Assembly: GCA_034520365.1 (NCBI GenBank)
Contig: JAXHNP010000007.1
Span: forward strand, 62,001-126,000
Reading direction: 5' to 3'
DNA: 64,000 nucleotides
Origin: Desulfobacterales bacterium
GTDB taxonomy: Bacteria > Desulfobacterota > Desulfobacteria > Desulfobacterales > Desulfosalsimonadaceae
A program made the translations under genes and the position numbers. The notes beneath the pieces are model-generated. The model was not told the DNA's origin, searched no databases, and worked only from the letters and a program-made list of their open reading frames with translations. Each line of letters starts with the position of its first letter. Position 1 is the first letter of the stretch. Shown in pieces: positions 23,721 to 61,143 of this stretch.

Positions 23721-23726
23721 AAAAAT

Positions 23727-28194: not shown

Positions 28195-28200
28195 AAAAAC

Positions 28201-33508: not shown

Positions 33509-33509
33509 G

Positions 33510-33538
33510 ACCATGTGTTAACAGAACACAAAAGTCAA
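33510..33538 (-). promoter_or_regulatory. promoter of riboswitch C
   Basis: On the minus strand TTGACT, 17 nt, CATGGT. The -10 box is weak, but its distance matches A and B exactly. Confidence 0.5.
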
Positions 33539-42507: not shown

Positions 42508-43491
42508 TTAGAAAACATAATTGAATGAAATAATATCATTGCTGTATCGCTCTCCTACCATATTAATTGCGTCATTACTATCATAATAGTCTTTATATGA
42601 TCTATTCTTGAAATTTGTGACATTAAATTTTTTTAGCTGCTGAAGGTCTAAACCGGATATATCTCTTATTGCAGAGATATCCTTCTGTAAGGTCTCAAAC
42701 TTAGCCACATAATCAACTAAGGATTTGGTGTTAGAATATATTTTTGGATACTGTGCGATAAAGTGATTATCAGCATGACTGTCAGGAACAGAAGAAATAA
42801 TTCTAATTACATCGCTTATTTTTAAATCTTCCTTGTCAAGAAAAACAGCAAATGGATGCCTCCATTTGCTATAATTTTGGTGATTATTCCCTTTATCTAT
42901 TTTGTCACGATAAAATGAAGCGACCCTGTCCCATGGATTTCTTACTATAGTAAATTTAAAATAATCAGCAAATGCCGGATCTTTCATTTCGATTCTAGTG
43001 TTCAACCCCGCACTTGTCTTTGGGGCATTTTCAAATTCAGGATAATTTTTCCGAAAATATTCTCTGATTGAGCTGTACAGCACCTTATAATTTGGCAAGA
43101 AGATAATTTTATTCATGTGAGAAACGATACAAGTTCTTTCCCAAGAGTCAGACTGAAAAAGCCTGAGGATAACAAAATGCTTAAAACCCATTTCAATATA
43201 ATAATGCAATGAGTTAATCCAATTAGGAAAGTTTACCACTAAAACATTATTTTTATTAAGTTTACATGTATTATTAGGCGCATAGACATTTGATTTCTCT
43301 GTCAGTGCTACATTTTCAGGGCTAACGAAACATACAAAATCAATATTATTTTTATTCAATTTTCTCCCTAACTTGACACTTCTCTTATCAAGCCCTGTAA
43401 TACATATGTCGTAATTAGAGTATTGTTTTAGATCATCTATACTATCAATAAATTCAATCTTTACTAAAGGTAATTCCACTGTCTTTATCAT
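42508..43491 (-). CDS. carbohydrate sulfotransferase (Sulfotransfer_2-like)
   Basis: 327 aa. Residues ~150-300 resemble Golgi-type carbohydrate sulfotransferases: NKIIFLPNYKVLYSSIREYF in place of the usual hhhxxPKxxxTS loop, then FTIVRNPWDRVASFYRDKID, a canonical 3'-phosphate-binding motif. HADNHFIAQYPKIY and VAKFETLQKD also fit. The 5' loop lacks the usual Lys-Ser/Thr pattern. Residues 1-145 form an extra domain (YDICITGLDKRSVKLGRKLN) that I do not recognise. It starts 14 bp after the giant glycosyltransferase gene, so it is probably co-transcribed. Confidence 0.8.
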   Translation of the reverse strand: MIKTVELPLVKIEFIDSIDDLKQYSNYDICITGLDKRSVKLGRKLNKNNIDFVCFVSPENVALTEKSNVYAPNNTCKLNKNNVLVVNFPNWINSLHYYIEMGFKHFVILRLFQSDSWERTCIVSHMNKIIFLPNYKVLYSSIREYFRKNYPEFENAPKTSAGLNTRIEMKDPAFADYFKFTIVRNPWDRVASFYRDKIDKGNNHQNYSKWRHPFAVFLDKEDLKISDVIRIISSVPDSHADNHFIAQYPKIYSNTKSLVDYVAKFETLQKDISAIRDISGLDLQQLKKFNVTNFKNRSYKDYYDSNDAINMVGERYSNDIISFNYVF

Positions 43492-43504: not shown

Positions 43505-46500
43505 CTAATTAAAATCCACATCGTAATTATACATTTTCCACTTATACACATTTTTTTCTTCTGACATGACCTTTTTCTGACCAGTCTTATCAGAAATATC
43601 ACTTTCACTGACATCTTGAATCAATAGATTTGGATAACAGGTCAGGCACTTTTCCGGGTATATGGCCTTTGGTTTATGCAGTGGGCCCTCGTCATATGGC
43701 AGATCAAAACGCAGACAATGATTTAACACTAAAGGAATGACGGATTTGCGCATCCCCACGGCATGAGATCCAAGACTTGAACCATTGCACATATAAAGAT
43801 TTTCGGAATACCACTTGATCCAATCCTCACTCCAGTGATATTGTAGGGCTCCTAACTGAATAATCAACCAGTCATTGGGTACCTGCTCAATAATTTTGGC
43901 AAACAGCGAATGTAAATCTTTATGAAAAAAGACGTCATCATCCAGCACAAGAATCTGCTCATACTCATTCTTCAGAGCATCCTCCAAAATATGGATCATG
44001 GTCAGTAAATAACCCCATGCACCTGGGCTGCCAATGGCCTTGGATCGATTTCTTTTTTCGAGATATGCTACTCGACTCATATCGCAGGGATACTTTCGAT
44101 AGAGTTCAAAATTGGTACTTATCTCAAGGGCTTTTGGAACTTTGATATAATCTTGCCGGGCATATAATTGGTATTCATCAGCATGGGGTGGCTTACTGCC
44201 ATCAATAGCCGTAAACCGCTCCAGGTTGATACCGAACTTGTCTGCACTATTTTTCGCTCGCTCCCATCTATCAGGACGTCGGTCGAGATTGAGGACATAG
44301 ATATTATCAAAAAAAGCATTCAGTGTCGTCTCTCTCTCCCGACTTTCAGATCTTGCCGAAGCCGGTCGAGCGACATAAATCCTGCTTTCATCTCGCATCA
44401 CAGCAAACCGCCGGTTCAACTCCTCTGGATTTTTTGTTTTTTTATACTCCTCTCCCCAGGGAAGGGCGCAACGGTAACAATCCGCTTTGTAATTCTGAAT
44501 TTCAATATATTCGTTGCTTCCGATAGCGTCAAAAAGGTTGCTCATATCATTACAGCCGGCCCGGCAGCATCGAAGATGATAGTCACCATGCCATTGCCCG
44601 CGGATCGGAAAGTTTTTTTCATCGCAATACCCGACGCGCTTCAATGTATCTGGTGTAAATGTAAACAAACTACCCGTACCCAAATCAAACCAAGCGTCAC
44701 CATATGCCACACACTTTTGAGAAGTATCATAAGCGGGTGGTGGCAGCTCGAAATCCGGATTGTCTCTTTTCTTTAAATTCGTCGCATGCACTAAATGCCT
44801 GTGGACCAGATGGCTATAGCCACTTGATTTGATAGCATTGATATAAAGTTGGTCCCAGCCGTGCTTGGTGAAAAACATGTCATCGTCTACACTAAACCCG
44901 TAATCAAAACCGATCTTTTTGCAAAGGCCAAAAATTGTATTTGTCTGCCCAGGTGCGTAGCGACGATTATTTTTGATAATATGAAACTCGTGCGGTATTG
45001 TTAACTTTTCCAGATATTCCAAGGTGCCATCGGTTGAGCCATCGTCAGCAACAATAACCACCCATTCAAAATCCAGGCTTCGTGTTGCAAGAAAAGATCC
45101 AAGACATTCAGCAAGATATTCCTTTCGGTTGTAAGTCTTTATGGCAAATACCACTTTCGGCTTAACTCTCTGCGGCGGAAACAGAGTTACGGGATGCATT
45201 CTCCGGACGACACTAGTCTGAATGCTTTGGGTATTTAGACTACTCAAAATATTATCAAAAGAATGTTTGTAGATGCTTTGCTTAACCACTTGGTCTTGGG
45301 GCATTATCCAGTTATGTGGCCGAGGGATGGATATGAGTGGGATATTTTCTTCCTGGGCTTTTTTGGCCAACCATATATCGGCCATGTTTCGGAACTGAAA
45401 ATCATTCCGGGAAAGTTTAACGTGCTCAGTATGATGGGCTATGGCACCTGTTCCCAACACATGACAGGCATATTCTCTGGTATTTTGATGGCGGTAATGT
45501 GCGACATGTCGCGAATTTTTATCATAATAATTTTGCAGGGGCTGCTTTAATAAAATGCCGTGTATGCCGACAACCGCTTTATTATTGTATTTTTGGAGTT
45601 CCTGGATCATCCTGTAAGCATAATCTGCCGGATACACAATATCGTCATCACAGATAAGCCTGTAGCCAGGTGGGGGATCATCTGCCCAGAAGAATTTGCC
45701 GGTATCTCCGTCATCTCCCCATACCTGGGATCTTTCGACTTTTATCCGGCGGTCATTTTTCAGAAACGAGGGTACCGACTCGTACCCGTTAAGAAACACC
45801 CTGATTTCATCAACCTGAAAATACAGGCTCCTAACGACATCCTCTAAAACTTTTTTGCGGCTGGGAATCGAAGCCAATGAGGCAATGACTTTTTCAGAAG
45901 CCAAAATATCGGGTTTCACGCAAGCCTCTTCCGGCAAAAGCCGGCTTAGTTTAATATTCTTTACGTGTATCTGATCATCCACCTGGGCATTTCTCAAAAA
46001 TAGATATAGGTCAATTTTAGAGGTTTGACAAAAACTTCGAAAAACAATCGATGCCTCTTTCCACGTCTCTGAACATGGCTCGTGCATTACAACCGGGGCA
46101 ATGCTTCCTTTATAATAACTTAATTTACCGTCTATCCTGTTATCCCTTACTATCCAATACAGTTCGCCCTTTTTCGTAAATGATTTATATTTAAAATGAA
46201 GCTTATAATAATTATCAGAGCTTATATTAATCTCCGGCTTTACAGCACATTGTAAGACCCCACTTTTACGGCATTTTAAAATGCCGTCTTTTATCATTTC
46301 AAAATTCTCACCGATTTTCCAATCTTCCAGGCTGTTATAAGAAATAGAATCTTCAAAAATGACCTCTAAATCCTTTTGTTTGGCACAAAGCGTTTCAAAA
46401 TTGTTGTCAATGTCTTTATTTACCATTGATCTATCAATATCAGCATATGGCAATGAACTTTTTACCATATTCAACTCGTGTTGGTTGTTAATCTGCGGTA

Positions 46501-47065
46501 TAAAATCAAGGCCCTTAACCTTATAATCATAACCGTATGCAGGGGTACCTATTTTCTTAAAATCATCTTTGCGGCAAAGCAGACACACTCCTTCTTGAGT
46601 CTCAAAAAAAATATCCTCAGCAGCATTATTACTTCTTTCCCTGCTATTACAAAACAGAAAATTTTTAAGGGTTTCCCAGGGTTTTTGAAGAAGGTTAATT
46701 TCTTTTTCACCCTGATGGGTCGTAAATACAAAAGCTTGGTTTGCTGCAGGAATATTTTTCGTGGCTTTTAAAAAAAGACCCTCCGGGTGATCAACTTCAG
46801 GCACCAGAAAAAATAAATATGGATTTTTGGCTCTGGCTGCACCGTAGTTGCAATACTGAAAAAAGGAAGTTTTCACGGGCATCTTGATGTAGCGTATAAG
46901 CCCCCTGGTGACGTGTTTGGCTATGATCTGGTGCCTATCAAATGCATTATAGGAATCGATGATAATTAGCTCCACAGGATATTCGATTTCCAATGCAAAA
47001 AAAGAAAATAACAAACTGTCAAGATCTTTAATAGAAGCATGAACAGGAAGAATTACCGAAAACAT
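43505..47065 (-). CDS. four-domain glycosyltransferase (GT2-like, sugar-binding-like, GT2, GT25)
   Basis: 1186 aa. Order: a GT2-like domain (MFSVILPVHASIKDLDSLLF, ~1-215); a beta-sandwich like a carbohydrate-binding module (~228-378); a glycosyltransferase domain with YRLICDDDIVYP (~388-600); a GT2 domain (FAIKTYNRKEYLAECLGSFL, IVADDGSTDG, FSVDDDMFF; ~628-870); and a GT25 LPS-type domain (YVLNLDRRPDRWERAKNSAD, ILVLDDDVFF; ~926-1130). It could add several sugars in sequence. Cytoplasmic, no membrane segments. Co-oriented with sulfotransferase genes on both sides. Confidence 0.88.
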   Translation of the reverse strand: MFSVILPVHASIKDLDSLLFSFFALEIEYPVELIIIDSYNAFDRHQIIAKHVTRGLIRYIKMPVKTSFFQYCNYGAARAKNPYLFFLVPEVDHPEGLFLKATKNIPAANQAFVFTTHQGEKEINLLQKPWETLKNFLFCNSRERSNNAAEDIFFETQEGVCLLCRKDDFKKIGTPAYGYDYKVKGLDFIPQINNQHELNMVKSSLPYADIDRSMVNKDIDNNFETLCAKQKDLEVIFEDSISYNSLEDWKIGENFEMIKDGILKCRKSGVLQCAVKPEINISSDNYYKLHFKYKSFTKKGELYWIVRDNRIDGKLSYYKGSIAPVVMHEPCSETWKEASIVFRSFCQTSKIDLYLFLRNAQVDDQIHVKNIKLSRLLPEEACVKPDILASEKVIASLASIPSRKKVLEDVVRSLYFQVDEIRVFLNGYESVPSFLKNDRRIKVERSQVWGDDGDTGKFFWADDPPPGYRLICDDDIVYPADYAYRMIQELQKYNNKAVVGIHGILLKQPLQNYYDKNSRHVAHYRHQNTREYACHVLGTGAIAHHTEHVKLSRNDFQFRNMADIWLAKKAQEENIPLISIPRPHNWIMPQDQVVKQSIYKHSFDNILSSLNTQSIQTSVVRRMHPVTLFPPQRVKPKVVFAIKTYNRKEYLAECLGSFLATRSLDFEWVVIVADDGSTDGTLEYLEKLTIPHEFHIIKNNRRYAPGQTNTIFGLCKKIGFDYGFSVDDDMFFTKHGWDQLYINAIKSSGYSHLVHRHLVHATNLKKRDNPDFELPPPAYDTSQKCVAYGDAWFDLGTGSLFTFTPDTLKRVGYCDEKNFPIRGQWHGDYHLRCCRAGCNDMSNLFDAIGSNEYIEIQNYKADCYRCALPWGEEYKKTKNPEELNRRFAVMRDESRIYVARPASARSESRERETTLNAFFDNIYVLNLDRRPDRWERAKNSADKFGINLERFTAIDGSKPPHADEYQLYARQDYIKVPKALEISTNFELYRKYPCDMSRVAYLEKRNRSKAIGSPGAWGYLLTMIHILEDALKNEYEQILVLDDDVFFHKDLHSLFAKIIEQVPNDWLIIQLGALQYHWSEDWIKWYSENLYMCNGSSLGSHAVGMRKSVIPLVLNHCLRFDLPYDEGPLHKPKAIYPEKCLTCYPNLLIQDVSESDISDKTGQKKVMSEEKNVYKWKMYNYDVDFN

Positions 47066-47129: not shown

Positions 47130-49415
47130 TTATTCGAAATATTTTTCTTTAAAAGCAGCTGCCTTTGTTTTTTTTTCAAGATATTCAATAAGTTTATTCA
47201 TATGAAAAGGATTGTCTCTAGACAAAAAAACAAAGGTCGGCGTCCAATTAGTAACTTCAAAATAGAAATAGTTAAACTTAAATAATATATTTTTAACTCG
47301 CTCTAATTGAGAGCGCCCGTTACATTCTACACCGATCGCAGGAAGCGATTGCGAGATTACGCGAACCGCACCCTCCAAGACATCGGTCTCCATGCCTTCT
47401 ACATCTATCTTTATAATTGCTACAGGGTTCGTAATCTTCAAATCATCCAAGGATTGATCAATGGTTTTAACAGGGCTACTTATACTAAAAGAATCCTTTA
47501 ATTCTTCGTTGGTAGTCGTTAGTTCCGGATCTCCTGAGAATGATCCAAAATTTTTATCTATAATCATTTGTAAATCTACATAGCCGTTATTTTTCCCAAG
47601 CCCGTACCTTATAGGGTAAACTTTATCCTGAATATTATTAATAGCTATATTGACCACAAGGCACACAGCATTATGTGGTTCGGGCTCAAAAGCCAATACG
47701 TTCGCCTCTAGAATTTTTGCAAAATATATTGCGTGATTTCCGATGTTAGCGCCGCAATCTATGACGAACTCACCTTTTTGATAAAAATTTTTAAGTATTT
47801 CGAGGTATTCAAGTTCATAGAATGAGCCGGATTTTACAATATTTTTGGGAATATGATCGTCTGTCACATGCAACAAGTAAAACAAACACAGGCTGCTATT
47901 AATTTTACTCAATGACAATTTAAAATCATCAAATTTGCCTGTGATACTCTGGATAATCTCTTCAACCTGATGCAAAGCTTCTTCGCGTTCTTTAGACCTC
48001 GCATTCAACAGTTTATTTGAAATAGTGCTTAAAAACTGCTCAGTTAATTCAGAATAATCGGGCATTCCCGGGATATAATCATTGACGAACTTGGGAAAGT
48101 TATCATGTAAAATTCGGTTAGAAATATATTCCAAGGCTTTGGTTTGCAGATTTAAGTATTTCCTTATTAGCTCCTGAGATCTGCTGGCCTTAATCCATAT
48201 AATCAAATCCAGGGGAAAATCTCTAATAAAATGAGGCTTGGGGAAACTAATCCGGGGCTCGCTTCCAGTGATGAGCAATGTTAGATTAGCCTCATCTGGA
48301 AGCTTTATAGCATGACCCTTTATATGCAAAGCATCGATAAGAGATTGGCCCTCGAGACTCCAAAGCACTTGGGCTGTGGCCTTATTGACTATGGCTATAG
48401 AAGCAATGGATATGATCCCGTTTGTATTCAAGGGCCTTAAAATTATCTGAGAATACTGGATAGAAGGAAATTCAGGTACCACCAAACCAATTTTTTGCCA
48501 CTGCTCTTCTTTCAAGTCTACAATTTCCACCGTCTCTTCAGCTCCACCGGATGCAGCCAAAATGATGCTGGCCTGCAGGGGCGATTCAGTAGAGGGGGCT
48601 GGTTTTCGGGCCTGCACGTCTGTTTGGTTTTCCTGTTGTCCCGCCGTTGCAAGAAGGCTGTCCACCAGCGGCAATAATGTATTTGTATCCGTGTAAAAGC
48701 TGTGTTCAGTGTTCTGGTAACTGGCTGTACGGATCTGCTGGTAAAAGCGTTCGTATGGCTCGAAAGTCTGCCTGTTTTGTTCGCTCATATCACCTGCGTG
48801 GTGGTGCTTCAGGGAAGACTGAATAAACTTGAGTAGATTATAAGTTGTCGATTGTAAGTTGTGGGTTTTATGTTTAAGGGCATTCAGGGTTGATATTGGG
48901 TCTGCCAAGAGTTGGTCAAAAGTTATCAGGGTGTGGTCTTCGCCTTCCAGGGCCCGCTGGGCATCGCGGGTATAGGATATCCAAGTGAGATGAGCCCTTG
49001 TGAAGTTTAGATTTTCAGTAGCGGAAAGGGATCGCGCTGTTTCAAAAGGATGACGAAGCATAAGGAGGAATACTGGATCAATTTCTATTTGCTTCCAAAC
49101 ATTCTGCCACAACGGAAGTACCCTGCAGAGCAGAGGGTCGAATATAAAATAATCTTTATCAGACGTTGATAGCTCTTCCAAAAGGTTCTCAATACGGACC
49201 CCGGCGATTCGGGCTGCATCTGTCGTGAGCCAGTCCTTGGATAAAGGGGCTGCCGTAAGCGGTGAAAGCCCCAAATCTTGAAAAAGCAGGGCATTTATTG
49301 TTTCAGCATCCGGCTGATGATTAGGTGGTTCAATGCCCAAGAGACTCAGACAGCCGGTAAGCGCCGTAAGCCCGCTTCGCGGAGGGGCCATGCATATGTA
49401 TAACTTGGCTCGCAT
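47130..49415 (-). CDS. sulfotransferase - beta domain - FkbM methyltransferase fusion
   Basis: 761 aa. N-terminal sulfotransferase (MAPPRSGLTALTGCLSLLGI loop; FDPLLCRVLPLWQ; LLMLRHPFETARSL), closely matching the separate protein at 61214-62170. The middle (~280-410) is a beta domain (IILRPLNTNGIISIASIAIV, ISFPKPHFIRDFPLDLIIWI) also found in the coiled-coil protein at 59365-61143. The C-terminal FkbM methyltransferase (~540-745) has VIDCGANIGNHAIYFAKILE, VLAFEPEPHN and IIKIDVEGMETDVLEGA. It would both sulfate and O-methylate a glycan. An insertion sequence lies just upstream. Confidence 0.9.
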   Translation of the reverse strand: MRAKLYICMAPPRSGLTALTGCLSLLGIEPPNHQPDAETINALLFQDLGLSPLTAAPLSKDWLTTDAARIAGVRIENLLEELSTSDKDYFIFDPLLCRVLPLWQNVWKQIEIDPVFLLMLRHPFETARSLSATENLNFTRAHLTWISYTRDAQRALEGEDHTLITFDQLLADPISTLNALKHKTHNLQSTTYNLLKFIQSSLKHHHAGDMSEQNRQTFEPYERFYQQIRTASYQNTEHSFYTDTNTLLPLVDSLLATAGQQENQTDVQARKPAPSTESPLQASIILAASGGAEETVEIVDLKEEQWQKIGLVVPEFPSIQYSQIILRPLNTNGIISIASIAIVNKATAQVLWSLEGQSLIDALHIKGHAIKLPDEANLTLLITGSEPRISFPKPHFIRDFPLDLIIWIKASRSQELIRKYLNLQTKALEYISNRILHDNFPKFVNDYIPGMPDYSELTEQFLSTISNKLLNARSKEREEALHQVEEIIQSITGKFDDFKLSLSKINSSLCLFYLLHVTDDHIPKNIVKSGSFYELEYLEILKNFYQKGEFVIDCGANIGNHAIYFAKILEANVLAFEPEPHNAVCLVVNIAINNIQDKVYPIRYGLGKNNGYVDLQMIIDKNFGSFSGDPELTTTNEELKDSFSISSPVKTIDQSLDDLKITNPVAIIKIDVEGMETDVLEGAVRVISQSLPAIGVECNGRSQLERVKNILFKFNYFYFEVTNWTPTFVFLSRDNPFHMNKLIEYLEKKTKAAAFKEKYFE

Positions 49416-49627: not shown

Positions 49628-49966
49628 ATGGACCAATTTGACGATTATTTGAAGTATCAAAAAGAGGTTGCAGAAGCAACACTCAAAATCATTGACCGAT
49701 TTCAGGGGCGGGCTAAAGAGAAGCCCAAAAAACGTACGTCAAATATTGAAATCATTCGGCACGTACTCAGCACCGCCGATCGCCCCTTACATGTCTCTGA
49801 AATCATCGATCTGGCTGAAACCCAGTTCCAGGTCACACTTGAAAGGGATTCGGTGGTCTCCGCTATCCTGAAAAAGATTAAAGCCGGTAAAATGTTTATT
49901 AAAACCGGGCCCAACACATTTACGGTAAAACAAGCGCCCTCCAAGGAAACAGGAGGGCTATCATGA
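49628..49966 (+). CDS. HARE-HTH-like accessory protein of the insertion sequence
   Basis: 112 aa. Helical start, then SNIEIIRHVLSTADRPLHVS, EIIDLAETQFQVTLERDSVV, SAILKKIKAGKMFIKTGPNT. This winged-helix pattern recalls HARE-HTH domains (DNA-binding, seen with nucleases and methylases). It lies inside the IS ends, has its own promoter and overlaps the transposase start by 4 nt (ATGA). It probably helps or regulates transposition. Confidence 0.75.
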   Translation: MDQFDDYLKYQKEVAEATLKIIDRFQGRAKEKPKKRTSNIEIIRHVLSTADRPLHVSEIIDLAETQFQVTLERDSVVSAILKKIKAGKMFIKTGPNTFTVKQAPSKETGGLS

Positions 49967-51400
49967 TAGATGTCATCAGCCATATGTTATCTGCTTTTCG
50001 CAGCTGCTTTGCCCGAAAGGCGGCGTTTAACTGGTTCGTCGTCGTTATTTTCGGCTTCATGGTCCGGCTCGACCATTATGGCGTGAGCTCCTTTGTGCGG
50101 TGGCTCCAACTGAAACCGTCATTCTATACCTCCATGCTGGCGTTCTTCAGAGCCACTTCCTGGAAGCTCACCGACATTTTACAGAAATGGTGGCAACTTG
50201 TTCTCTCGCATTGCCCGTTGATCTATATCAAAGATCGCATGCTCCTTGCCGGCGACGGCATCAAAATCAGCAAAGAGGCCGAAAAGATGCCGGGGATTAA
50301 AAAACTGCACCAGGAATCGGATAACTCCGGCAAAGCCCCGTATATTTACGGCCATCATTATGGGGCCATCGGGCTCATGGCCGGCTGGGTAAAAAAAAAT
50401 CTTTTGCATCCCCCTTTGTGCAGAGCTGCATGAAGGGGTAGAAGAGCTCCGAGAGTTCCAGAGTAAACCAGCGCCGCTGGTCAATGGCCGGCCAAGGGTC
50501 AGTGTGACGAGCCTGATGGCCAAAATGGCCGTCGATATAACCAGGCGCATGGGCAAGAAAGCGATCATCGTTCTGGACGCCTATTTTGCCGTGGGTCCTG
50601 TATTTTCGATCGTGAGGCAACTCGTGGATGACAATGGCCACCGCCTGCTTCATGTGATTACCATGGCCAAAAGTAACGTTGTTGGCTACGAGCCGCCGCC
50701 GCCAAGCACCGGCAAACGCGGCAGGCCCCGGACATATGGCCCCAAGCGAAAGCTTGTGGATTTGTTCGAAACCGAAGTATTCGAGCAGGTGCGCCTTGAG
50801 ATATATGGGCAAAGCAAAATCATATCCGTTTTATGCCTTGACCTGATCTGGCGGCCCATTCAGGAGAAAGTCCGATTTGTGCTTGTTTGCGATGGCGACC
50901 AACGATTTATTCTGATGTGCTCGGATTTAGAGCTTCCGGCAGCCGATATCATCCGGGCCTACAGCTATCGATTCAAGATCGAGGTCAGTTTTAAAGTTCT
51001 CAAGCATCTGATCGGTGCTTTTTATTATCGGTTTTGGACCAGTGTGTGGCCGCGGGCCGGAAGGCAAACCAAAAGTGATTTGTCGGCAATCGACAACCCT
51101 CGGTCTAAACGCTTGGTTCGGGAAGCAATTGATGCGCTTGAAGCTTTTGTTAATTTTGGCTGTATCGCCACCGGCATGCTTCAGATCCTGGCATTGAATT
51201 GCCACCAATCGATCTGGAAGAAATACCAAGGATGGCTGCGAACCGTCACTTCGGCGATACCATCGGAAGAAGTGGTGCAGGCCGTCATCCAGATGGAATA
51301 CTACCATAATTTTCGCTTTTTCAGGAATAGCGCGATTTACCGAATAATTATGTCAAAGAGCAAAAAGGCCAATGATTGCGAAATGCCGCTTGCGGCATAA
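49963..51400 (+). pseudogene. DDE transposase (IS4/IS701-like) with a frameshift in an A9 tract
   Basis: Frame 1 (49963-50433) holds MIDVISHMLSAFRSCFARKA and the first catalytic Asp (LLAGDGIKISKEAEK). Frame 2 (to 51400) holds MGKKAIIVLDAYFAVGPVFS and the C-terminal part with YSYRFKIEVSFKVLKHLIGA (Glu). They join at 50391-50399: eight A instead of nine would restore GWVKKIFCIPLCAELHEGVE. Either the copy is dead, the run is misread, or slippage makes the full protein. Confidence 0.8.
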
Positions 51401-51428: not shown

Positions 51429-52547
51429 TTATTTATTGGCTGTAAATGTTTTCCTTGCCAATTTTTTAAAAAAATGAATTATCTTATCGATATTTTTGCC
51501 TTCAAGCCTGCCGGATTCATAAAAGGACTTCTTTAAATAAAGCCCTTTCAACGCTAACTCCGCTTTCAACGCTTCCGGAATTTCTGGTATCCTAGGATTT
51601 GTGTTGTTCTTTAACGACGGAAACAGCGGATCTTGCCTTTGGGGAAAATAACGTTTGCAAATCTTTTCGTTTTCTTCTGCAAAAAGGGCAAGAAATTTCT
51701 CTCTGGCGCGGTGGTTTTCCCATAAATCATATTTTTTGTTTGGGTAGTAACTGTCAAGCAGACCTTGTACTTCAGGGCTATGTATGCAGTCTATAACTTC
51801 ACGATTTTGTTTTTTGGAGTCGATCACCCGGTTTAGAAAAATTTTCAATACGGTTTCAGGGGCACTTAGGCTTTTACGCACAATGCCGACCTGGGCCATA
51901 TTACAAGTATCGACACACAAGCTTGAAAAAAAATTCGTGCACAATTGCCCGTCTTTTATTAAATCCTCATAGATCAACACTTTTATACCCGGAAAAACCT
52001 CTTCAAACAAAAGCAGGTTCTGGTAGAATCTTTTTTGAATTTCGCTTTTTTCAAAATTTTTCAAAAATGCTGAAAACGGCTGCCGACCCGCCGGCGCATT
52101 TTTCATGACATGCTCTTGAAACAAAGACTTGACATAATCATCCTGCCGGCGAAGCACCAATAACACTTTGATATCAAATGCTGATAACACACCTGCCAAG
52201 TTTTTTAAATAGGCCTTTCGCTTGCCGTGCCAGGTTCCGGGTCTTTTATCGTCAACGTGGCGGGATATGGATTCTGAGCTTAAAAACAGCGTAAGGTTTT
52301 CATTATCAGCTATTTTAGCCCAGTGCCTTGCTAATTGTCTGGCTTGCCCCTCGCTCAGGCGCTTGCCCTTGCCGGCAATGGTGTGGGCAAAATCATGATG
52401 GGCTTCATATGGTTTGCTTAATGCCGGGCTGTAATCGGGGTATAAAAACCCTTGCTTGAACAGGGCTTTTCGATTTTTGGCCGCAAATGCCTGTATGGCG
52501 GTGGTTCCGGTTTTATGAAGGCCTGCGTGGAGAATGAGTTTGGGCAT
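51429..52547 (-). CDS. sulfotransferase-like protein
   Basis: 372 aa. ILHAGLHKTGTTAIQAFAAK is the standard PAPS-binding loop of sulfotransferase-like proteins in surface-glycan loci. VLLVLRRQDDYVKSLFQEHV fits the 3'-phosphate site. The last ~60 residues are helical. Its stop codon lies in the right end of the insertion sequence, so the natural C terminus may have been slightly changed. Divergent from the ABC-like gene at 52816. Confidence 0.88.
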   Translation of the reverse strand: MPKLILHAGLHKTGTTAIQAFAAKNRKALFKQGFLYPDYSPALSKPYEAHHDFAHTIAGKGKRLSEGQARQLARHWAKIADNENLTLFLSSESISRHVDDKRPGTWHGKRKAYLKNLAGVLSAFDIKVLLVLRRQDDYVKSLFQEHVMKNAPAGRQPFSAFLKNFEKSEIQKRFYQNLLLFEEVFPGIKVLIYEDLIKDGQLCTNFFSSLCVDTCNMAQVGIVRKSLSAPETVLKIFLNRVIDSKKQNREVIDCIHSPEVQGLLDSYYPNKKYDLWENHRAREKFLALFAEENEKICKRYFPQRQDPLFPSLKNNTNPRIPEIPEALKAELALKGLYLKKSFYESGRLEGKNIDKIIHFFKKLARKTFTANK

Positions 52548-52815: not shown

Positions 52816-54660
52816 ATGAAATTTAATATACTGAATTTGTTTTTATACCGGCTGAAAGAAGCCCTGTACCATTTCCCGGCGTATCGCGATGCCCTGTTAT
52901 GGCTATTGCGTGATATATGTATGGCCTTTCCCCGGGCGATGATCAGTCTTGTCGCTTTTTCCATGATCGGCGCATCACTGCAGGGTTTTGCCCTGGTTGC
53001 AGCCCTCAAGTATGTGAGTTACCTGGAAAGAAGTGTGGAGATCACCCTGGCAGGCATAAACTTTGCCGCCCGAAGTGGTGAAGTGCTTTTTCTGGCAGCT
53101 TTTTCTTTTTTTGCACTCTTATCTTTCAGTGCCTGGCTCTTATACATGGCCGGAGCAGTTGCCTCCCGGCTGATTGCCAGATACCAGATCTATCTTTTAA
53201 AACGCGCCATTGCCTTGTTCGGGACGGTGGTGCCGGGCGCGTCCACCCCGAAAAGCGCGTCTGATGCATTGCAAGTGATACCCAAAACCATAATAAAGGA
53301 TGTGCAAAAATCAGCAATGCTGGTGCGTTTCATGGCAACGACGCTGCCGAACATCGTCATGCTGATGTATGCTTTCCCCATTCTCGTATATATTGACCTC
53401 AGCCTGACACTGGGGTTGATGTGCCTGGTGGTATTGTTTTTACCTTTTTTTTATCAGGCAAACATAATGGCCTATGAAAGCGATCTCATGGCCAAGCGCT
53501 CCGGCAGCGAGGCCACAAAAACAATTGTGTCGCTTATGGAAGATATCAAGGACTTCCAGTATATTTCTCCCAAACAGACCAAGGCTATCAACAAGGCTTT
53601 TGACAAGGGGGGCTTGAAAGACAAAATGCATTCCACGGCGGTTTATTTTCTTTCTATCTCTAAAACCGATTTATGGGGCAACATACTGCTGGGAATGTGC
53701 GTGAGCTTGGTAATTGTCATCCAGGTGCCGGCGGCTTTAGGCGGCACCACCACTTGGGCAAGCTTGGTTGCATACCTGACATTTCTTCGGCTGGGGGTGA
53801 ACTCTTTTAAAGGGATAATGTCTTTTTTGACCAAGTTTTCGCGGTTTTATCCATATATCCATCGGTACCAACATTTTGTGCAAAGCGCTGAATCCAAACC
53901 GAATAAAGAAGATCGGCTAGTGATAAAAACGGCTGCCCATGGAATCTATGAGCAAAGTGCTGAAATCGAAATCCGGGAACCCGTACGCATGGCCCTGGTG
54001 ACTGGTGTCCCCCTTTCGCGTTATTCCTTCCCCTACATGGTGAGGCTCGGGAGCAAGGCTGACAACGGGATATTTGTATCCCCCCGGGAGTGTTTTTTTA
54101 TTGGGTGCAAGGGTCTGCCCCAACGCGACGGTTCTTTGCGCAGTATGCTCAATCTGCCGGAGGGATTTTCCCCAAAAGACTTGGAGCAGGCCATGCCGAG
54201 GGACGTGTATGAAGAAGTGCACAAACATATCGGTACGAATTTAGACAAAAACATTGGGGAAGACAAATGGGAGAAGCTTTATTTAGCCCACCGTGTGGAG
54301 CTGGGCATTGTGGCGGCGATGCTAAACCAGGCTAAGGTTGTGATCATAGATCAAAACACGCTGGCCCAGATTCCCGAAGCAAAGCGCAAAGAGGTACTCG
54401 CTCAATTGAAAAAGCATAAAACACTGACCGTTATCAGTTATTCCGAAGACAGCTTGAAAGCTGATGCGCCGGGTCAGCGCTTTGGCGAAGATCTCTGCGC
54501 GGTAGCCGGATGCACTGGCAACCTACTAGCTCTGGGTTCGCCTCGATGGGTTGAAGAGAAGCGGGAGAAGATACTGAATTTACTGGTTAAAGAAGAGGTG
54601 CGGCTTACGCAGGGTATGGATGACGATACGATTGATGAAGAGGTGGAAACAGACGACTAG
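52816..54660 (+). CDS. ABC-exporter-like protein with a degenerate ATPase domain
   Basis: 614 aa from the ATG at 52816 (the frame also opens at a TTG at 52798). Residues ~30-345 are a type-1 ABC exporter membrane domain of about six helices. Residues ~370-590 align with an ATP-binding domain but lack its motifs. The Walker A position reads ALVTGVPLSRYSFPYMV (~393), without GKS/T. No LSGGQ signature precedes LGIVAAMLNQAKVVIIDQNT, where the Walker B Glu is Gln (IIDQ, ~512). The switch His region is TVISYSEDS. A pseudo-ATPase transporter, perhaps a scaffold, a heterodimer partner, or an inactive flippase. An acidic tail (DDDTIDEEVETDD) ends it. Confidence 0.85.
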   Translation: MKFNILNLFLYRLKEALYHFPAYRDALLWLLRDICMAFPRAMISLVAFSMIGASLQGFALVAALKYVSYLERSVEITLAGINFAARSGEVLFLAAFSFFALLSFSAWLLYMAGAVASRLIARYQIYLLKRAIALFGTVVPGASTPKSASDALQVIPKTIIKDVQKSAMLVRFMATTLPNIVMLMYAFPILVYIDLSLTLGLMCLVVLFLPFFYQANIMAYESDLMAKRSGSEATKTIVSLMEDIKDFQYISPKQTKAINKAFDKGGLKDKMHSTAVYFLSISKTDLWGNILLGMCVSLVIVIQVPAALGGTTTWASLVAYLTFLRLGVNSFKGIMSFLTKFSRFYPYIHRYQHFVQSAESKPNKEDRLVIKTAAHGIYEQSAEIEIREPVRMALVTGVPLSRYSFPYMVRLGSKADNGIFVSPRECFFIGCKGLPQRDGSLRSMLNLPEGFSPKDLEQAMPRDVYEEVHKHIGTNLDKNIGEDKWEKLYLAHRVELGIVAAMLNQAKVVIIDQNTLAQIPEAKRKEVLAQLKKHKTLTVISYSEDSLKADAPGQRFGEDLCAVAGCTGNLLALGSPRWVEEKREKILNLLVKEEVRLTQGMDDDTIDEEVETDD

Positions 54661-54678: not shown

Positions 54679-57219
54679 TTAAAATGATTTTTGCCGCTTC
54701 TGATCCGGGTTTTGTCTTTTTGAAATTTTTTCCACCCTTAAAGCATGTCTGGTATAGCCGAAAGTCTTTTCAACATAATCATATGCTTTCTTAACCTGTG
54801 TCTTATAATGCTCAGGATTGCTCATAAGATCATCGATTTTCCGACTTACCTCTAAAGGTTCCGCGTAAATGGCAGCGTCTGCGAACAACTCCCTATAGCT
54901 CGGAGGGATCACAACAGGTACGCCGACGGCCATGGCTTCCAGTATAACACGGCCAAAGGATTCAATACAGTCTGGATGAATATAATAAACAAAAACATCC
55001 AGTTTAGCCAAAAAGTCTTTGGGATGCATGGCTCCAAATTCAAATACGATCCAGTTGTCAGGCAGGCTTCCAAGCATATTTTTCGGTGTTTGCGCGCCTC
55101 CAAGCACATATACTTCATATGGACCGGCATCAGGATAAATGGAAAGTAATGTGCCAGGATCTGCAGGCCATTTGACATATTGGTCCCTCGAATGCCTGCC
55201 GATTCGAATTTTAGATCTTTGAGGCGGACGATCGGTTCGCCTCCATTTTTGTGCATCAATGATATTTGTCCAGTCTTCGTCTGAAAAATTGACATAGGAC
55301 AGTTCATCAAAGTGATGGTCATAAAGCATTTTGCGAAGTTGTGGACCGATGGGATGCCAGATACCGGACCGGCCAAAATAATGTTTAAGGTTTTCGGAAC
55401 AGCGCTTAATCTCATAATAGCGCAAACCGGCGCCGGTATAATCTTTTTTGGGGGACTGATTTACAATAACCCTGACATCATTAGCTTTAACCGCGGGAAG
55501 AAACCGTTGCCGGTCCTGAAGTACAAGTGGATGGCGCAAGATTAATAGATCACATGAAACTTTCTCGCCATAAACCAGCATCTGTACCATTTTGCCATCC
55601 AACATCTCTCTGATTTTTGAATTGATTGTTCCTTCTGTATCCAGGTCATACCGGTACATCTGGATCAGGCCGGTTCGCAGCCCCATTTTTTTATGGACTT
55701 TTATTTCTTCCAGGTTGGACATGGTGGTCCCCCCCGGCAGACGAAACTCAGAGGCAATAATCACATCAAAATACCGAGTGGACGATCGCCTGGCTTCCCG
55801 CTGGGGCCACATGGGCTCGGGCACAGGAAAGGGGCGGAATTTCTGCGGGAACTCGTAGCGCAGGCAAGTCGCGATATCATGGTAGTAGTTAGAGGCTTCA
55901 AAATATTCTTTACGGGCCCCCATAAAAAAACCATGATACCCAAAATGCGGATCTCCGGTCAGTGAGTTCGGAGACTGCCTTTGAAAGGAAAGCGGACCTG
56001 TTGATAGCCGAATAACGGAATCATCTCCAAAGGCTCGCCTCGCGCGTCGCACAAATTCCCCGTCAGCCCCGAAGCGCACACAATCCCAAGCCCCCAAAGA
56101 ATCAAGTAAAAGCTGGCGGCGAAACATCATTGAAGACATGTTAATATGTATATAAAAACCTGGATTACCACGCCGGTAAAACTTGAGGTCGCTAGTGGCT
56201 CGGGCCTGCTCCGAGATGTTGGCAACAATAAAAGGATTTTCCAAAAGATGTTGCGCCTGCTTTTCTATTTTTACCGGATGGGACCAGTCATCAGCATCAT
56301 TCGTGGTCACAAAGTCACCACAAGCCTCTTTTAACGCGATGTTGCGAGCCACATATGGACCACTGTTTATATTTGTTTTCAGTAATTTAATTCTAGGGTC
56401 TTTATCTGCATATTCTTTGACGATTGCTGCTGTAAGGTCTGAACTGCAATCATCTACCACCAGAATCTCCAGGTTACTCCATGTCTGCGCAAGCATGGAA
56501 TCAAGAGCAGTTCCAATGGTATCTTGCGAATTATATGCGGGAATAATAACGGTAACCTTTGGGTTGCCGTTCGTCTTTAAAGGCTGAAGGGCTTTTGTCG
56601 GTGCAAGACGATCATAGGGCGGGATATCCGAAACTTTTTCTAGTGTGACGGGGGCAAGCTCATATAGCGCCAGGGCCTTATTAATCCATACCAATCGCTT
56701 ATCAAGTTGGTCTTCCAGATTTGCGGCAGCCAAGTAAAGATCCGCATGAAGGCTCATGTTAAGTTGTTTTTTAACCGTTTTAAAACCTCCTGCTCTGTCT
56801 GCCAAAATATCATGACATTCCGCTTTGAGCACTGTTGCCCTGATCAGCCGAACAGAATCTTTCTCGCCCTTTGTCACAATGGGGAGAAGGCTCAGGCAGC
56901 GCCAAGCGCTCGCAGGCGTATATTGATTGGCTTCCCATAGAGCCAGTTCCCATGCTGCCGTCCTCTTCTGGAATGGTTGAGATTTATCCTCAAGCATTTC
57001 ATGCAATTCCATTAGCGGACGATCTGTGAACCCCAATTGGTGTAGGCAACGTTTAGCGCGCTCTACCCTGCGCAGCGTATATTGCTCACCTGGGGAAAGC
57101 AGTTTCTGCAAAACACTTTGCCCGTATGGGGGAATTTTATTCCAGATAATTTCTTTTTGCTCTGGTGTTAGTCTTTTAACAATAAGCCACTCAACCAAAT
57201 CAGCTAATTTGGGAATCAA
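54679..57219 (-). CDS. GT2-GT4 bifunctional glycosyltransferase
   Basis: 846 aa, TTG start preceded by AAGGATT. An N-terminal helical region (~1-215) is followed by a GT-A GT2 domain (PKVTVIIPAYNSQDTIGTAL, ILVVDDCSSD, FVTTNDADDW; ~222-430). The GT-B GT4 domain (~485-840) has RYFDVIIASEFRLPGGTTMS and the C-terminal donor-binding ESFGRVILEAMAVGVPVVIP. It could add two sugars to the growing glycan. It lies alone on the minus strand between the ABC-like gene and the toxin-antitoxin pair. Confidence 0.9.
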   Translation of the reverse strand: MIPKLADLVEWLIVKRLTPEQKEIIWNKIPPYGQSVLQKLLSPGEQYTLRRVERAKRCLHQLGFTDRPLMELHEMLEDKSQPFQKRTAAWELALWEANQYTPASAWRCLSLLPIVTKGEKDSVRLIRATVLKAECHDILADRAGGFKTVKKQLNMSLHADLYLAAANLEDQLDKRLVWINKALALYELAPVTLEKVSDIPPYDRLAPTKALQPLKTNGNPKVTVIIPAYNSQDTIGTALDSMLAQTWSNLEILVVDDCSSDLTAAIVKEYADKDPRIKLLKTNINSGPYVARNIALKEACGDFVTTNDADDWSHPVKIEKQAQHLLENPFIVANISEQARATSDLKFYRRGNPGFYIHINMSSMMFRRQLLLDSLGAWDCVRFGADGEFVRRARRAFGDDSVIRLSTGPLSFQRQSPNSLTGDPHFGYHGFFMGARKEYFEASNYYHDIATCLRYEFPQKFRPFPVPEPMWPQREARRSSTRYFDVIIASEFRLPGGTTMSNLEEIKVHKKMGLRTGLIQMYRYDLDTEGTINSKIREMLDGKMVQMLVYGEKVSCDLLILRHPLVLQDRQRFLPAVKANDVRVIVNQSPKKDYTGAGLRYYEIKRCSENLKHYFGRSGIWHPIGPQLRKMLYDHHFDELSYVNFSDEDWTNIIDAQKWRRTDRPPQRSKIRIGRHSRDQYVKWPADPGTLLSIYPDAGPYEVYVLGGAQTPKNMLGSLPDNWIVFEFGAMHPKDFLAKLDVFVYYIHPDCIESFGRVILEAMAVGVPVVIPPSYRELFADAAIYAEPLEVSRKIDDLMSNPEHYKTQVKKAYDYVEKTFGYTRHALRVEKISKRQNPDQKRQKSF

Positions 57220-57922: not shown

Positions 57923-59365
57923 TTATTTGCCGCCTTTTAGCAGGCTCCCCAGGCGGCGGGACAAACGGCGGCCGATTATTGCGCGAAAGACGTGGGCCAG
58001 GCCGGCGGTAAAGCTGGGCTTGTCCGGGTTCATGCCTTTTGCCCACTCGGCAAAGCCGCCGATAATGGGGGGTGCAGCCGGGTCGTCTTCAAGGAGCCTG
58101 CGGCCGTGATAGGCGATGGCGGAGAGTTCCGAGCCGATGCGGGCGCGCTGACTTTCGGTCAGGGTTTGGGGCTCCAGGCTTTCGATTAACTGGCGGGCCT
58201 GCTGGATGCGCTTTAAAGTGCGCTTGGGGGCGTTTTGTTCCCGGTGCTCGATTTGGAGCTGGTCCAGGATATCCAAAAGTGTGCGGGTCAGGCGGACGGC
58301 ATCCGAGGTACGGGACAGAACGGCGGCCAGCTCCTTTCGGGTGGATTTGGGCAGGTCAGGATCATCTTTGAGTTGTTTTTCGGTTATCAATTCTTCTTCC
58401 GCGGCCAGGCGCTGAAGGGCGCGCACCGGTAAATGGGCCGGCTTGGGCGGGATAAAGGGAAAATAGCTGCACAGGTCCGCATCCATTTCTCCCCGGGCGG
58501 AGATCATGGCGAACCCGGCCAGTTGCCACAGGCGGCGGTCATTTTCCGGTAATTGATGGAGGTTGGCGCACAGGCCGACAAACAGCTTTTCCGCGTCCTC
58601 GACCAAATTATAATGCCCGGGCTGCCCGAGCATGTTTTCCAGATATTCTTCGGCCAGGGCGAGCTCTGCAAGTTCACGGTCAAGGTCGGCCGCGCTTTCC
58701 AGGCGGTAACTTTCCAGAATCCGGGAGACGGGGAGTTTGAGCTCAAAGCGCTGCCGTCGGAGCTTGAGCCGCCGGTTGATCCAGCTATAAGCCAGCTTGG
58801 TCTCCGGGGCCAGCTGCAGGGCAGCTTCTATGTATTCAATGTCTTCGGGCCGGGTGTCATCCGGAAGGATCGCCACCCGCACCTCCTGAAATTTGCGGTA
58901 ACGGTCCGGATTTTCAGAAAGCAGGGCCCGCATGGCCGCCAGCCGGCGGTTGCCGTTGACAACGATACCGTCTGCGGTTATCAGGAGGGGTTCGGTTTGC
59001 TGGGCCTGGCGGGAGAGCTCATGATAGATGGGGCCGCGGGGATCTTTGGACATTTTCAGGAGCAGGGAGTGGAGCTCTGCCTGGACCTCCGGGCTTTCCT
59101 GGTTGGCGGCAAAATAGCCCGGCGGCAGCTGCCGGGTGCGCTCCAGCTCCTGAAGCTGGGTAATCAGACGGCCGTTTTCCGGCCTGTAGAAAAGCAGATC
59201 CGCCGACAGGCGGGCGATGGGCAACCGTCTGTATTCTCCCCTGAAAAATACAAAATGGCCGCCTTCGGCCTCATCAATGCCAGCGGCGATATATTCCGCT
59301 CGCCGGGCGGAATCGAGTTCAAAGGCTTTGGGCTGGCCCTCCTGTAAATCCGCTTGTGAATCCAT
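57923..59365 (-). CDS. ParB-like domain protein
   Basis: 480 aa from the ATG at 59365, which overlaps the coiled-coil gene's TAA by one base (TAATG); a longer frame exists but would read through that gene. Residues ~110-200 contain LLITADGIVVNGNRRLAAMR, the ParB/Srx-type signature (nucleotide- or DNA-binding), preceded by an acidic helical region. The rest is helical. The role is unclear: a ParB fold tightly coupled to a glycan gene is unexpected. Candidates include CTP/ATP-dependent regulation or phosphoryl chemistry. No parA or dnd genes lie nearby. Confidence 0.75.
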   Translation of the reverse strand: MDSQADLQEGQPKAFELDSARRAEYIAAGIDEAEGGHFVFFRGEYRRLPIARLSADLLFYRPENGRLITQLQELERTRQLPPGYFAANQESPEVQAELHSLLLKMSKDPRGPIYHELSRQAQQTEPLLITADGIVVNGNRRLAAMRALLSENPDRYRKFQEVRVAILPDDTRPEDIEYIEAALQLAPETKLAYSWINRRLKLRRQRFELKLPVSRILESYRLESAADLDRELAELALAEEYLENMLGQPGHYNLVEDAEKLFVGLCANLHQLPENDRRLWQLAGFAMISARGEMDADLCSYFPFIPPKPAHLPVRALQRLAAEEELITEKQLKDDPDLPKSTRKELAAVLSRTSDAVRLTRTLLDILDQLQIEHREQNAPKRTLKRIQQARQLIESLEPQTLTESQRARIGSELSAIAYHGRRLLEDDPAAPPIIGGFAEWAKGMNPDKPSFTAGLAHVFRAIIGRRLSRRLGSLLKGGK

Positions 59366-61143
59366 TAGTTGTTCTTCGCCCAATCCTCGTATGCTGCTGA
59401 AATCTTTAAGGCATGATCCATGGCGGTTTTCTTTTTCCACCTGAAAGTCAACAGGTCGATAATTGAAACAAGCCGGTTGCCTGTGCGCCATCGCACGGAA
59501 TTTCTGATGGCGTGGAAATCGTTTTTCGCCTGGCGGAGCCATGATTTCAGTTTTTTGGTATTTTGCACCCGGCTTCCCGCTGACTCATCTTGATATTCTT
59601 GAAAAATCTGCCCCAGGTGATCAATGGCCATGGTTTTTTTGCGCCTGAAGGCCAGAAGTTCCAGAAAACGGATCAGGGCATTTCCCAGCTTCCATCTCAT
59701 TGAATTTTTGAGCAGTTCATAGTCGTTGTTCAACTGGCGCAGCCAATTATTCAGCATTTTAATGGATTCAGAATCATGGAATGGAGATGGGGCGGCGAGC
59801 GGGATATTGAATTTTTCTGCTGTATGCCCCTTTTGTTCAAGCCGGTTAAGCGTCTCGTTCATATGGTCAACAGCCAGGGGCTGTTTTTTCCGAAACAGCA
59901 GAATCTCAATCAGCCGAACAAGGAAATTGCCCCACCGCCACCTGGCGGAGGAGATGAGGGCCTGATAGTCCCTGCGCAGCTGGCTGATCAACTTTCCGTT
60001 TTCCTTGTTTTGTAATTCTGCCGTGTCGGCCCGCTCCTCAGTGGCGGCCAGCCGGTCCTGAACATGCACTAGCTGGCTTTCGGATTTTGACAACTCGGTG
60101 AAGTACTGGCGGGTAAGATCCTCCTGGTTGTCGAGCTTGTCCTGAAGGTTCTGCAATTCCTGCTGCAGTCTTTCCAGATCGCTTTCTCTGTCTGTAACTT
60201 TATCCCGGATATGCTTTAATTCCTGTTCATTTCCGGCGAGCGCCTCGTCCTGCCGAGCGATTTTTTCCTGAAGCCGAGTTACCTCCTCGGCCCGGCTTTT
60301 GGCTTTCCGAGCGTTTTCCTCTGCTTCTTGAGCCTTTTCTTCTACTTCAATGGCCAATTGCTGCTTATGTTCCTCCTTTTCCTGGAGGTATTGTTCCAGG
60401 CTTTGTTTTTCCGCTTCTAATTCAGCCTGCTTTTGAATAACACTCTCTTTTTTTGCCAACTTAGCTTCAAGCTGCTGCAAGTCCTGCTGAAAATTTTGTT
60501 TTTCCGCCTCCAGCGTCTTTTTCTTTTCTTCCCGTACCTGGATCATTCTTTCCTTTTCCGTCAATTTTTCCCTTAACGCCTGTTTTTCCTGTTCCCACTC
60601 GGTTTTGGACTGTTCGGTCTGTCGTGCCAGCTCATCTTTCTGTTTTTGGGTTGCCTCGATCTCCGTTTTCAGCTTCTTGATGGTTTGGTCTTTCTGGGTC
60701 CACAAATCTGTTATTTGGTCCAGATTCCGGCCGGCTTTCAGCCATACTTCAAAACGAAGCGGCGCATCCGGCAAATCGGGGAAGGCGGGGAGAAAAATCC
60801 GTGGCGTATTGCCTGTCGCGCACATAACCAGTCCCTCCTGGCGGTCAAGCACAAGCGCCTGGCCTTCAACGGAGCACTGATCAAAACCGGCGGAATCCGG
60901 AGCAGACCAGACCGCCTGATCCGTGGCCGCGTTTATAAGGGCGAGGGATTGAATCCGGATCATGCCCCTTGTGTTCAGGGGGTCAAAGCGGAGCCGGTTT
61001 TGACGCAGTACATCCGGATTATTGATCTCCATGGAAATCTTCTGCCACTCTTCAGGGGCCAGAAGAATTTTTTTTGTGTTTTCGGAAGGGTGCATATTTT
61101 GGTCATTATCTGCCGAGGGAAGGCAGATTTGTGCATAAAGCAT
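59365..61143 (-). CDS. coiled-coil protein with beta domain and three SxRWRxGN repeats
   Basis: 592 aa. Residues ~25-140: beta domain (RLRFDPLNTRGMIRIQSLAL, RIFLPAFPDLPDAPLRFEVW) shared with the sulfotransferase-FkbM fusion. Residues ~150-385: long coiled coil. Residues ~386-592: three ~60-aa repeats (SSARWRWGNFLVRLIEILLF, NSMRWKLGNALIRFLELLAF, NSVRWRTGNRLVSIIDLLTF, each then KK-x3-A-x-DH). The coiled coil may measure chain length, as in WbdD-type rulers (inference). The frame continues upstream of the ATG to a TGA at the sulfotransferase's end, so the true start may be a non-ATG codon. Confidence 0.82.
   Translation of the reverse strand: MLYAQICLPSADNDQNMHPSENTKKILLAPEEWQKISMEINNPDVLRQNRLRFDPLNTRGMIRIQSLALINAATDQAVWSAPDSAGFDQCSVEGQALVLDRQEGLVMCATGNTPRIFLPAFPDLPDAPLRFEVWLKAGRNLDQITDLWTQKDQTIKKLKTEIEATQKQKDELARQTEQSKTEWEQEKQALREKLTEKERMIQVREEKKKTLEAEKQNFQQDLQQLEAKLAKKESVIQKQAELEAEKQSLEQYLQEKEEHKQQLAIEVEEKAQEAEENARKAKSRAEEVTRLQEKIARQDEALAGNEQELKHIRDKVTDRESDLERLQQELQNLQDKLDNQEDLTRQYFTELSKSESQLVHVQDRLAATEERADTAELQNKENGKLISQLRRDYQALISSARWRWGNFLVRLIEILLFRKKQPLAVDHMNETLNRLEQKGHTAEKFNIPLAAPSPFHDSESIKMLNNWLRQLNNDYELLKNSMRWKLGNALIRFLELLAFRRKKTMAIDHLGQIFQEYQDESAGSRVQNTKKLKSWLRQAKNDFHAIRNSVRWRTGNRLVSIIDLLTFRWKKKTAMDHALKISAAYEDWAKNN

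Follow-up and report, generated by a model that had tools for sequence, protein, structure and literature searches.

The gene at positions 52816-54660 (plus strand) of the studied window, a 64,000-nucleotide stretch of a Desulfobacterales genome (hereafter G000), encodes a 614-aa protein, P0001, that by descent is a type IV ABC exporter, a membrane domain followed by a nucleotide-binding domain (NBD). Judged by its motifs, it fails the test for an ATP-driven pump at Walker A, the signature, the Walker B Glu and the H-switch. The loss is real, ancestral to a clade of related proteins and apparently selected, and the family is unnamed in the libraries searched. Given its placement among surface-sugar genes, the family probably handles those sugars without ATP. 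Our leading, still tentative reading is an ATP-independent flippase or holder of a lipid-linked, often sulfated glycan, derived from an exporter that lost its ATPase once.

Domain composition of P0001

The frame runs from an ATG to the stop codon at 54660, and an in-frame TTG lies upstream of the ATG, at 52798. As a reference we used 26 Walker A-bearing exporters from the genomes holding the family. These were left from 29 ORFs after dropping L049, which is the family member L006, and L045 and L050, which are cut by the locus end. Residues 1-350 (52816-53865, plus strand) make up the type IV ABC-exporter membrane domain; its exporter type, part of the original prediction, was confirmed by an HMM built from the 26 exporters, by NCBIfam and by Foldseek. 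The exporter HMM matches residues 60-373 (E 9e-6 in a set of seven sequences), and NCBIfam NF045998 matches residues 170-365 at E 1.3e-8, far under its cut-off; the top NCBIfam score of P0001 is 33.7 bits against a cut-off of 500. Other sub-threshold NCBIfam matches at approximately residues 455-541 are to a glucan exporter (E 0.008) and MsbA (E 0.02), while Pfam returns nothing for P0001 even at E 10. For a model of the whole protein (pLDDT 44.5), the best 50 of 1069 Foldseek matches are all MsbA/BmrA/TM287-type exporters, and 35 matches have E ≤ 0.001.

The remainder, except for the last residues, is a pseudo-NBD, that is, an ATPase-dead ABC nucleotide-binding domain fold, with its linkers (53866-54612, plus strand), assigned by a profile, the MsbA match, Foldseek, VIA-align and homology to the relative L067. 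The position-specific NBD profile, built from the 26 exporters of the same genomes, gives the C-terminal part a local score of 59.2, where shuffled sequences average 28.4 (z 8.1; 0/300 shuffles reach it), and the best of 80 neighboring control ORFs scores 44.2. The top PDB sequence match of P0001 is MsbA, over the NBD, at only E 0.058. AlphaFold2, run on the single sequence of residues 360-586, gives a model of low confidence (mean pLDDT 50.1). The best 50 of its 1331 Foldseek matches are all ABC proteins, and VIA-align yields Z up to 7.5 (under 8; 140 residues at 5.1 Å), a Z that taken alone proves nothing, so that the fold matches of the model serve as support only. The predicted identity of the C-terminal half as an ABC NBD is supported above chance.

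Alignment to the Walker A-bearing exporters places the former Walker A loop, ALVTGVPLSRYSF, at residues 393-405 (53992-54030), and LYLAH replaces the LSGGQ signature at residues 488-492 (54277-54291). The Walker B strand, VVIIDQ (residues 508-513, 54337-54354), keeps its Asp and has Gln for the catalytic Glu; the D-loop region reads NTLAQIP; the former H-switch, VISYS (54430-54444), has Tyr for His; and GSPRW stands near the NBD end at the G-T-H position of the exporters (all on the plus strand). The replacements of Walker A, the signature and the Walker B Glu (IIDQ) that were originally predicted therefore stand, and the list is extended by the D-loop and the switch His, with the Walker B Asp retained. 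Since the P-loop, the signature, the catalytic Glu and the switch His are all gone, ATP hydrolysis by P0001 is very unlikely. The clean reading frame likewise held: 52816-54660 is open, the pseudo-NBD has 0 stops in 249 codons against a mean of 12.5 in shuffled DNA (stop-free shuffles, 0/5000), and a check of the five remaining frames of the gene for a frameshift uncovered neither a Walker A nor LSGGQ/E.

Loss of the ATPase motifs across the family

Nine sequences constitute the family: P0001, L002, L003, L005, L006, L007, L008, L010 and L067. Walker A, inspected by eye, is absent in all seven that have a C-terminal domain (P0001, L002, L003, L006, L007, L008 and L067). L005 stops shortly behind its membrane domain, with a contig end 0.4 kb away, and L010 is cut by the end of contig G120:C39, the extra piece L067 being the probable 3' half of the same gene.

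The nearest relative of P0001 is L067, from a genome (G120) of another family of the order, at 30% identity, and its replacements are as in P0001. At the Walker A position ALVTGVPLSRYSF of P0001 aligns with VVTPFKLNQYSM of L067, reading TGVPLSRYSF and TPFKLNQYSM, respectively; the H-switch is Tyr in both, and the Walker B of L067 is still WIVVDE. No homologue of P0001 closer than about 30% identity was found. Within this limit of nearness, no near homologue with normal motifs turned up, and related open frames from further genomes of the order, which share about 16-30% identity with P0001, have the same losses.

The C-terminal domains themselves have diverged strongly. Pairwise Smith-Waterman comparison against shuffles gives z 16.6 for P0001-L067, 7.9 for L007-L008, 5.3 for L002-L067 and 3.6 for L003-L006, and z ≤ 2.4 for the remaining 17 of the 21 pairs. 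Applied sequence by sequence, the NBD profile is borderline for L002 (z 3.2, with the score inside the control range) and gives nothing for L003, L006, L007, L008 and L067. An hhalign comparison of all C-terminal domains with NBDs returned a probability of 0.2, probably owing to poor alignment of divergent domains. NBD ancestry is thus shown by sequence only for P0001 and, via P0001, for L067; for the other members we infer it from position and clade. With the exporter HMM, five of the seven members score E 1.2e-7 to 5e-6 in the set of seven, mainly over the membrane domain, but L003 (E 0.016) and L005 (E 5.4) are missed by it on their own, which counts against exporter descent.

The predicted retention of length and element order thus holds for P0001, whose C-terminal half keeps the order of the Walker A-bearing exporters in the alignment, and fails for the family: C-terminal domains are shorter than that of P0001 in several relatives (e.g. 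L007 and L008), L005 lacks a C-terminal domain, and the family also has an acidic tail. As far as the sequences tell, loss of the ATPase motifs is ancestral to the clade and is not recent decay, and one single loss fits best. Selection for a non-hydrolysing role, as originally proposed, is well supported by the motif-less homologues, which form one clade. Recent decay or a frameshift was considered and rejected in view of these homologues, the related pseudo-NBDs and the open frame.

Distribution of the family

Among 60 relatives including G000, homologues occur in two, the other genome having two genes with 21-22% identity over the matched stretches. A three-row profile applied to 389 genomes drawn from the same order found 8 loci in 6 genomes, and the "class" genome draw gave the same family result. 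An eight-row profile over the 389 genomes matched in 18 genomes at E 1e-6; the twelve extra matches are ordinary exporters, with Walker A in 12/12, and were excluded from the family. The phylum draw yielded one of 395 genomes at E 1e-10, G000 itself. Searches of the families of G334 (1/30), G211 (1/6) and G036 (1/1) returned only genomes that were already known. G000 holds a single copy of the gene, and the three further genomes of its genus that were searched have none. No member was found in the plasmids searched. None was found in genome_contigs and viral_contigs either, where the peptide patterns were few and poor, so that absence means little. The family is rare and patchy in the order, as genes of surface-glycan loci often are.

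The family is not named by any Pfam or NCBIfam model. Across eight members the best NCBIfam match has E 1.3e-8, and no curated named family of either library fits. PF00664 at E 0.01 matches one of the eight (E 4.2e-4), and the PF00664 score of L006 is 22.3 bits against a cut-off of 28. Titles and abstract beginnings of the open-licence papers listed by the literature searches contained no description of a motif-less ABC exporter family or of its sulfotransferase loci.

Phylogeny and conservation of the membrane domain

On the membrane-domain tree the eight family rows lie on one side of a branch and the 26 exporters on the other (support 96/99). Without four long rows, one of them from the family, seven family rows are separated from 23 exporters with support of 100/100. 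The nearest exporter in the first tree, rooted at the midpoint, is the Walker A-bearing L044 of G000 (99/99); since L044 sits on a long branch, the kinship is tentative. Double-length ABCB-type transporters head the PDB matches of L044; among the single-half exporters listed PglK ranks first, matched over the full length at E 1.8e-72. L044 itself is encoded inside a glycosyltransferase/sulfotransferase locus.

The residues common to every member belong to the membrane domain, TM6 above all. The TM6 family motif of P0001, delineated from the alignment of members, consists of W314, R325 and SRFYP at residues 342-346 (53749-53865, plus strand). W314 is found in all eight rows of the A2 alignment and in none (0/26) of the Walker A-bearing exporters. 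The position of R325 is occupied by R or K in all eight covering members (K in L005); the exporters have R in 6/26 and K in 0/26, and this presence of R in six ordinary exporters counts against the glycan-flippase reading. Further on, [SN]R[FL][YF] is found in all eight covering members, followed by P in 6/8.

Measured by shuffle z, which favors the longer, hydrophobic domain, conservation is higher in the membrane domain than in the C-terminal domain for 10 of the 11 pairs compared. By percent identity the membrane domain leads in just four of the same pairs, which argues against a flippase or holder. The pseudo-NBD of P0001 and L067 is 30% identical and their membrane domain 22%, and for L003/L006 the C-terminal domain is ahead by z too. 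These values also fit a binding or scaffold role for the pseudo-NBD, which in P0001/L067 is as well conserved as the membrane domain.

The acidic tail

P0001 ends with the tail GMDDDTIDEEVETDD (54613-54657, plus strand), in which D/E make up 8 of the final 12 residues. Six of seven members have 6-9 D/E in the last 12 residues and L005 has 4; L067, which is outside this count, is likewise acidic at its end (KDTDEELEDF). The control set of 106 neighboring ORFs of at least 150 aa, selected mechanically and possibly including spurious ORFs, has at most 4 D/E at the same place. The strongly acidic tail is a gained feature of the family.

Glycan and sulfotransferase surroundings

The P0001 gene is alone on the plus strand between a divergent and a convergent neighbor. 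The divergent one (51429-52547, minus strand) resembles by eye a P-loop sulfotransferase at its N-terminus, HAGLHKTGTTAIQ, and has no Pfam or NCBIfam match at E 0.001. The convergent one (54679-57219, minus strand) is a fusion of GT2 and GT1/4-type glycosyltransferases (PF00535, E 4e-34; PF00534, E 3.3e-8). A Pfam sulfotransferase lies in the window at 42508-43491, with FkbM, GT2 and GT25 domain proteins between.

Several other genes of the region deserve mention. A very large fused protein of 1186 aa with GT2 and GT25 domains is encoded at 43505-47065 (minus strand), and at 47130-49415 (minus strand) an N-terminal part that is sulfotransferase-like by eye is fused to an FkbM methyltransferase domain. 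Near the pseudo-ABC gene, a transposase-like gene (by eye) occupies 49963-51400 (plus strand) in two frames, 49963-50433 and 50504-51400, the second without a Pfam match. Two 568-aa ORFs, transposase-like by eye and alike in sequence at both ends, lie 2.5 kb apart downstream of the window (L022:5234-6937 and L022:9459-11162). The gene at 59365-61143 (minus strand) encodes a coiled-coil-like protein whose C-terminal segment is tripled, by eye, as SARWRWGNFLVRLIEILLFRKK, NSMRWKLGNALIRFLELLAFRRKK and NSVRWRTGNRLVSIIDLLTFRWKK. The stretch 18497-36414 contains genes of three very large Flg_new_2 (InlB B-repeat-like) proteins, two of them with propeller or beta-helix repeats. Elsewhere in the genome, L069 (G000:C3:391500-411400) is another large glycan locus with five PF13469 sulfotransferase matches and a NeuB-like gene (by eye); L069:16349-18187 encodes a Walker A-bearing PglK-like exporter.

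Glycan genes accompany other family members as well. The pseudo-ABC gene follows a sulfotransferase gene with operon-like spacing at L018, a UDP-sulfoquinovose-synthase-like gene directly at L016 (L016:13426-14640, minus strand; NCBIfam E 5e-103, under the cut-off), and GT4 genes, with PglH as their best NCBIfam match (below the cut-off), at L020 and L021; at L017 it is downstream of a PF03567 protein. The synthase-like gene hints at sulfonated sugars besides sulfated ones. L016:9930-10691 and L020:3422-4141 are sulfotransferase-like by eye and have no Pfam match.

We counted sulfotransferases as PF13469 and PF03567 matches, of which the six genomes have 47. Within 5 kb of the family genes there are 7 at five of the eight loci, against 0.12 expected from the genome density with an even spread; within 10 kb, 8 at six loci against 0.21; and within 15 kb, 12 at seven loci against 0.29. 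As a null, the even spread is lenient, given that sulfotransferase genes are clustered with those of glycosyltransferases. Because the PF13469 match at L022:17203-17766 is missing from the genome-wide matches, the genome totals must be read as minimum values. The enrichment shows that the family lives in sulfotransferase/glycosyltransferase clusters, and not that it is in contact with sulfotransferases. Two of the eight loci have no sulfotransferase within 10 kb and the nearest Pfam-classified one at the G000 locus is more than 9 kb away, both of which count against the association. With these provisos, the glycan context originally proposed was corroborated and narrowed to sulfotransferase-bearing loci.

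Possible role of the family

We infer the mechanism, substrate, driving force, dimer and role of the tail as follows. An ancestral type IV ABC exporter of the order would have lost its ATPase once, and its descendants would have persisted in glycan-building loci, many of which carry sulfotransferase genes, as a membrane component that works without ATP. Two copies would make the usual exporter body. The conserved positive residue of the membrane domain, together with the glycan loci, suggests that an anionic lipid-linked glycan is bound, the Trp and Arg of TM6 and the SRFYP residues possibly lining the cavity. With NBDs incapable of ATP hydrolysis, flipping or holding of the glycan would proceed without ATP, driven either by an ion gradient or by polymerisation or ligation that pulls the glycan away on the far side. 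The paired pseudo-NBDs could give the dimer a rigid base in the cytoplasm, with a partner, perhaps a glycosyltransferase or sulfotransferase, docking at the acidic tail. More speculative is the fuller version, in which an unnamed family that lost its ATPase independently of SbmA, with a fossil NBD and an acidic docking tail, acts on sulfated lipid-linked glycans independently of ATP, moving them as a flippase or presenting them as a platform for glycan synthesis. A Wzx-like gene adjoins the family gene at the G211 locus (by eye; weak NCBIfam match, E 0.00089), and flipping there may thus be performed by another protein. If the family does handle sulfated glycans, it would provide bacterial sulfated polysaccharides with a membrane step. 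For finding partners, the acidic tail offers a simple, testable handle.

A dead exporter might instead act as a membrane scaffold or regulator, gathering glycosyltransferases and sulfotransferases via the pseudo-NBD and the tail, or sensing their products in the manner of SUR. We consider this rather unlikely, even though the tail is kept where the C-terminal domains are mutually unrecognisable, the pseudo-NBD is conserved between P0001 and L067, and spacing is operon-like with the sulfotransferase gene at L018, the UDP-sulfoquinovose-synthase-like gene at L016 and the GT4 gene at L020. The residues kept in every member are those of the membrane domain, TM6 above all, and no neighboring gene family accompanies every one of the eight loci; the most widespread, an epimerase-type group, is found at five.

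Partnership with another ABC half, suggested in the original prediction, has been weakened. Many exporters are heterodimers in which one of the ATP sites is impaired, and an active partner could be encoded elsewhere, G000 having four further ABC_membrane proteins, all on another contig. Still, the 10 kb on either side of the eight loci yielded no other ABC_membrane (PF00664) gene, six of the loci being cut by a contig end within that distance (G000 and G334 alone have the full 10 kb on both sides). Of the 29 ABC_membrane ORFs, 28 have a Walker A and only L006, itself a family member, lacks it, and to our knowledge the impaired exporter halves described still keep Walker A and bind ATP. We therefore regard an ATPase-dead half of a heterodimer as improbable. 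The conserved Arg/Lys of TM6 and the lost ATPase motifs would also suit a gated channel or facilitator in an exporter body, with CFTR-like logic, passing a small anion or a nucleotide-sugar-like solute, but the glycan locus suggests a larger substrate and makes this a very doubtful option. Finally, a functionless gene in decay, with a frame open by chance or recently disabled, is hardly credible given the stop-free pseudo-NBD (0/5000 shuffles), the divergent open frames with the same losses and the kept tail, in spite of the single copy in G000, its absence from the three congeneric genomes searched, and the gain and loss suggested by rarity and by L005 without a C-terminal domain.

Comparison with known systems

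The flippase or holder that we favor shares a common exporter membrane-domain ancestry and the glycan-locus context with the PglK/Wzk flippases, which are type IV ABC exporters. The link to PglK comes from L044, the nearest exporter on the tree, which matches PglK over its length, and it depends on a long branch. The exporter Wzk is reported to be able to replace the flippase MurJ in an E. coli strain depleted of it (PMC4990322). PglK-type proteins carry full ATPase motifs, whereas P0001 has lost all of them but the Walker B Asp and has an acidic tail added. Heterodimers of the TM287/288 and CydDC type resemble the family in having impaired ATPase motifs in an exporter chain; they differ in that no linked partner was detected here and Walker A itself is gone in the family. 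SUR, an ABC protein that regulates a channel, and CFTR are exporter bodies doing something other than pumping, and both keep nucleotide binding. Among the best Foldseek and VIA-align matches listed, they are just ABC proteins among others.

The closest functional precedent belongs to a different family. SbmA transports with an ABC-exporter body and without ATP, and the SLiPTs to which it and BacA belong have no NBD and no coupling helices, an extra TM0 and a glutamate ladder (PMC13316013). P0001 may work like a SLiPT, with an exporter body that functions without ATP hydrolysis. It is not a SLiPT itself, because an NBD-like domain is kept in P0001, as in L067, while SLiPTs are devoid of NBDs. 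In the alignment to exporters, the intracellular-loop stretches of the family show no visible deletion that would remove the coupling helices, which may thus be retained; SbmA-type proteins lack them, and this speaks against the flippase reading.

ABC exporters are defined by their ATPase, and the clade described here combines the exporter body with a dead motor at stages of shrinkage: P0001 is full-length, L007 and L008 are shorter, and L005 ends after the membrane domain. It offers a natural series for the question of how a primary pump turns ATP-independent, which so far has been asked of the SbmA lineage (PMC13316013).
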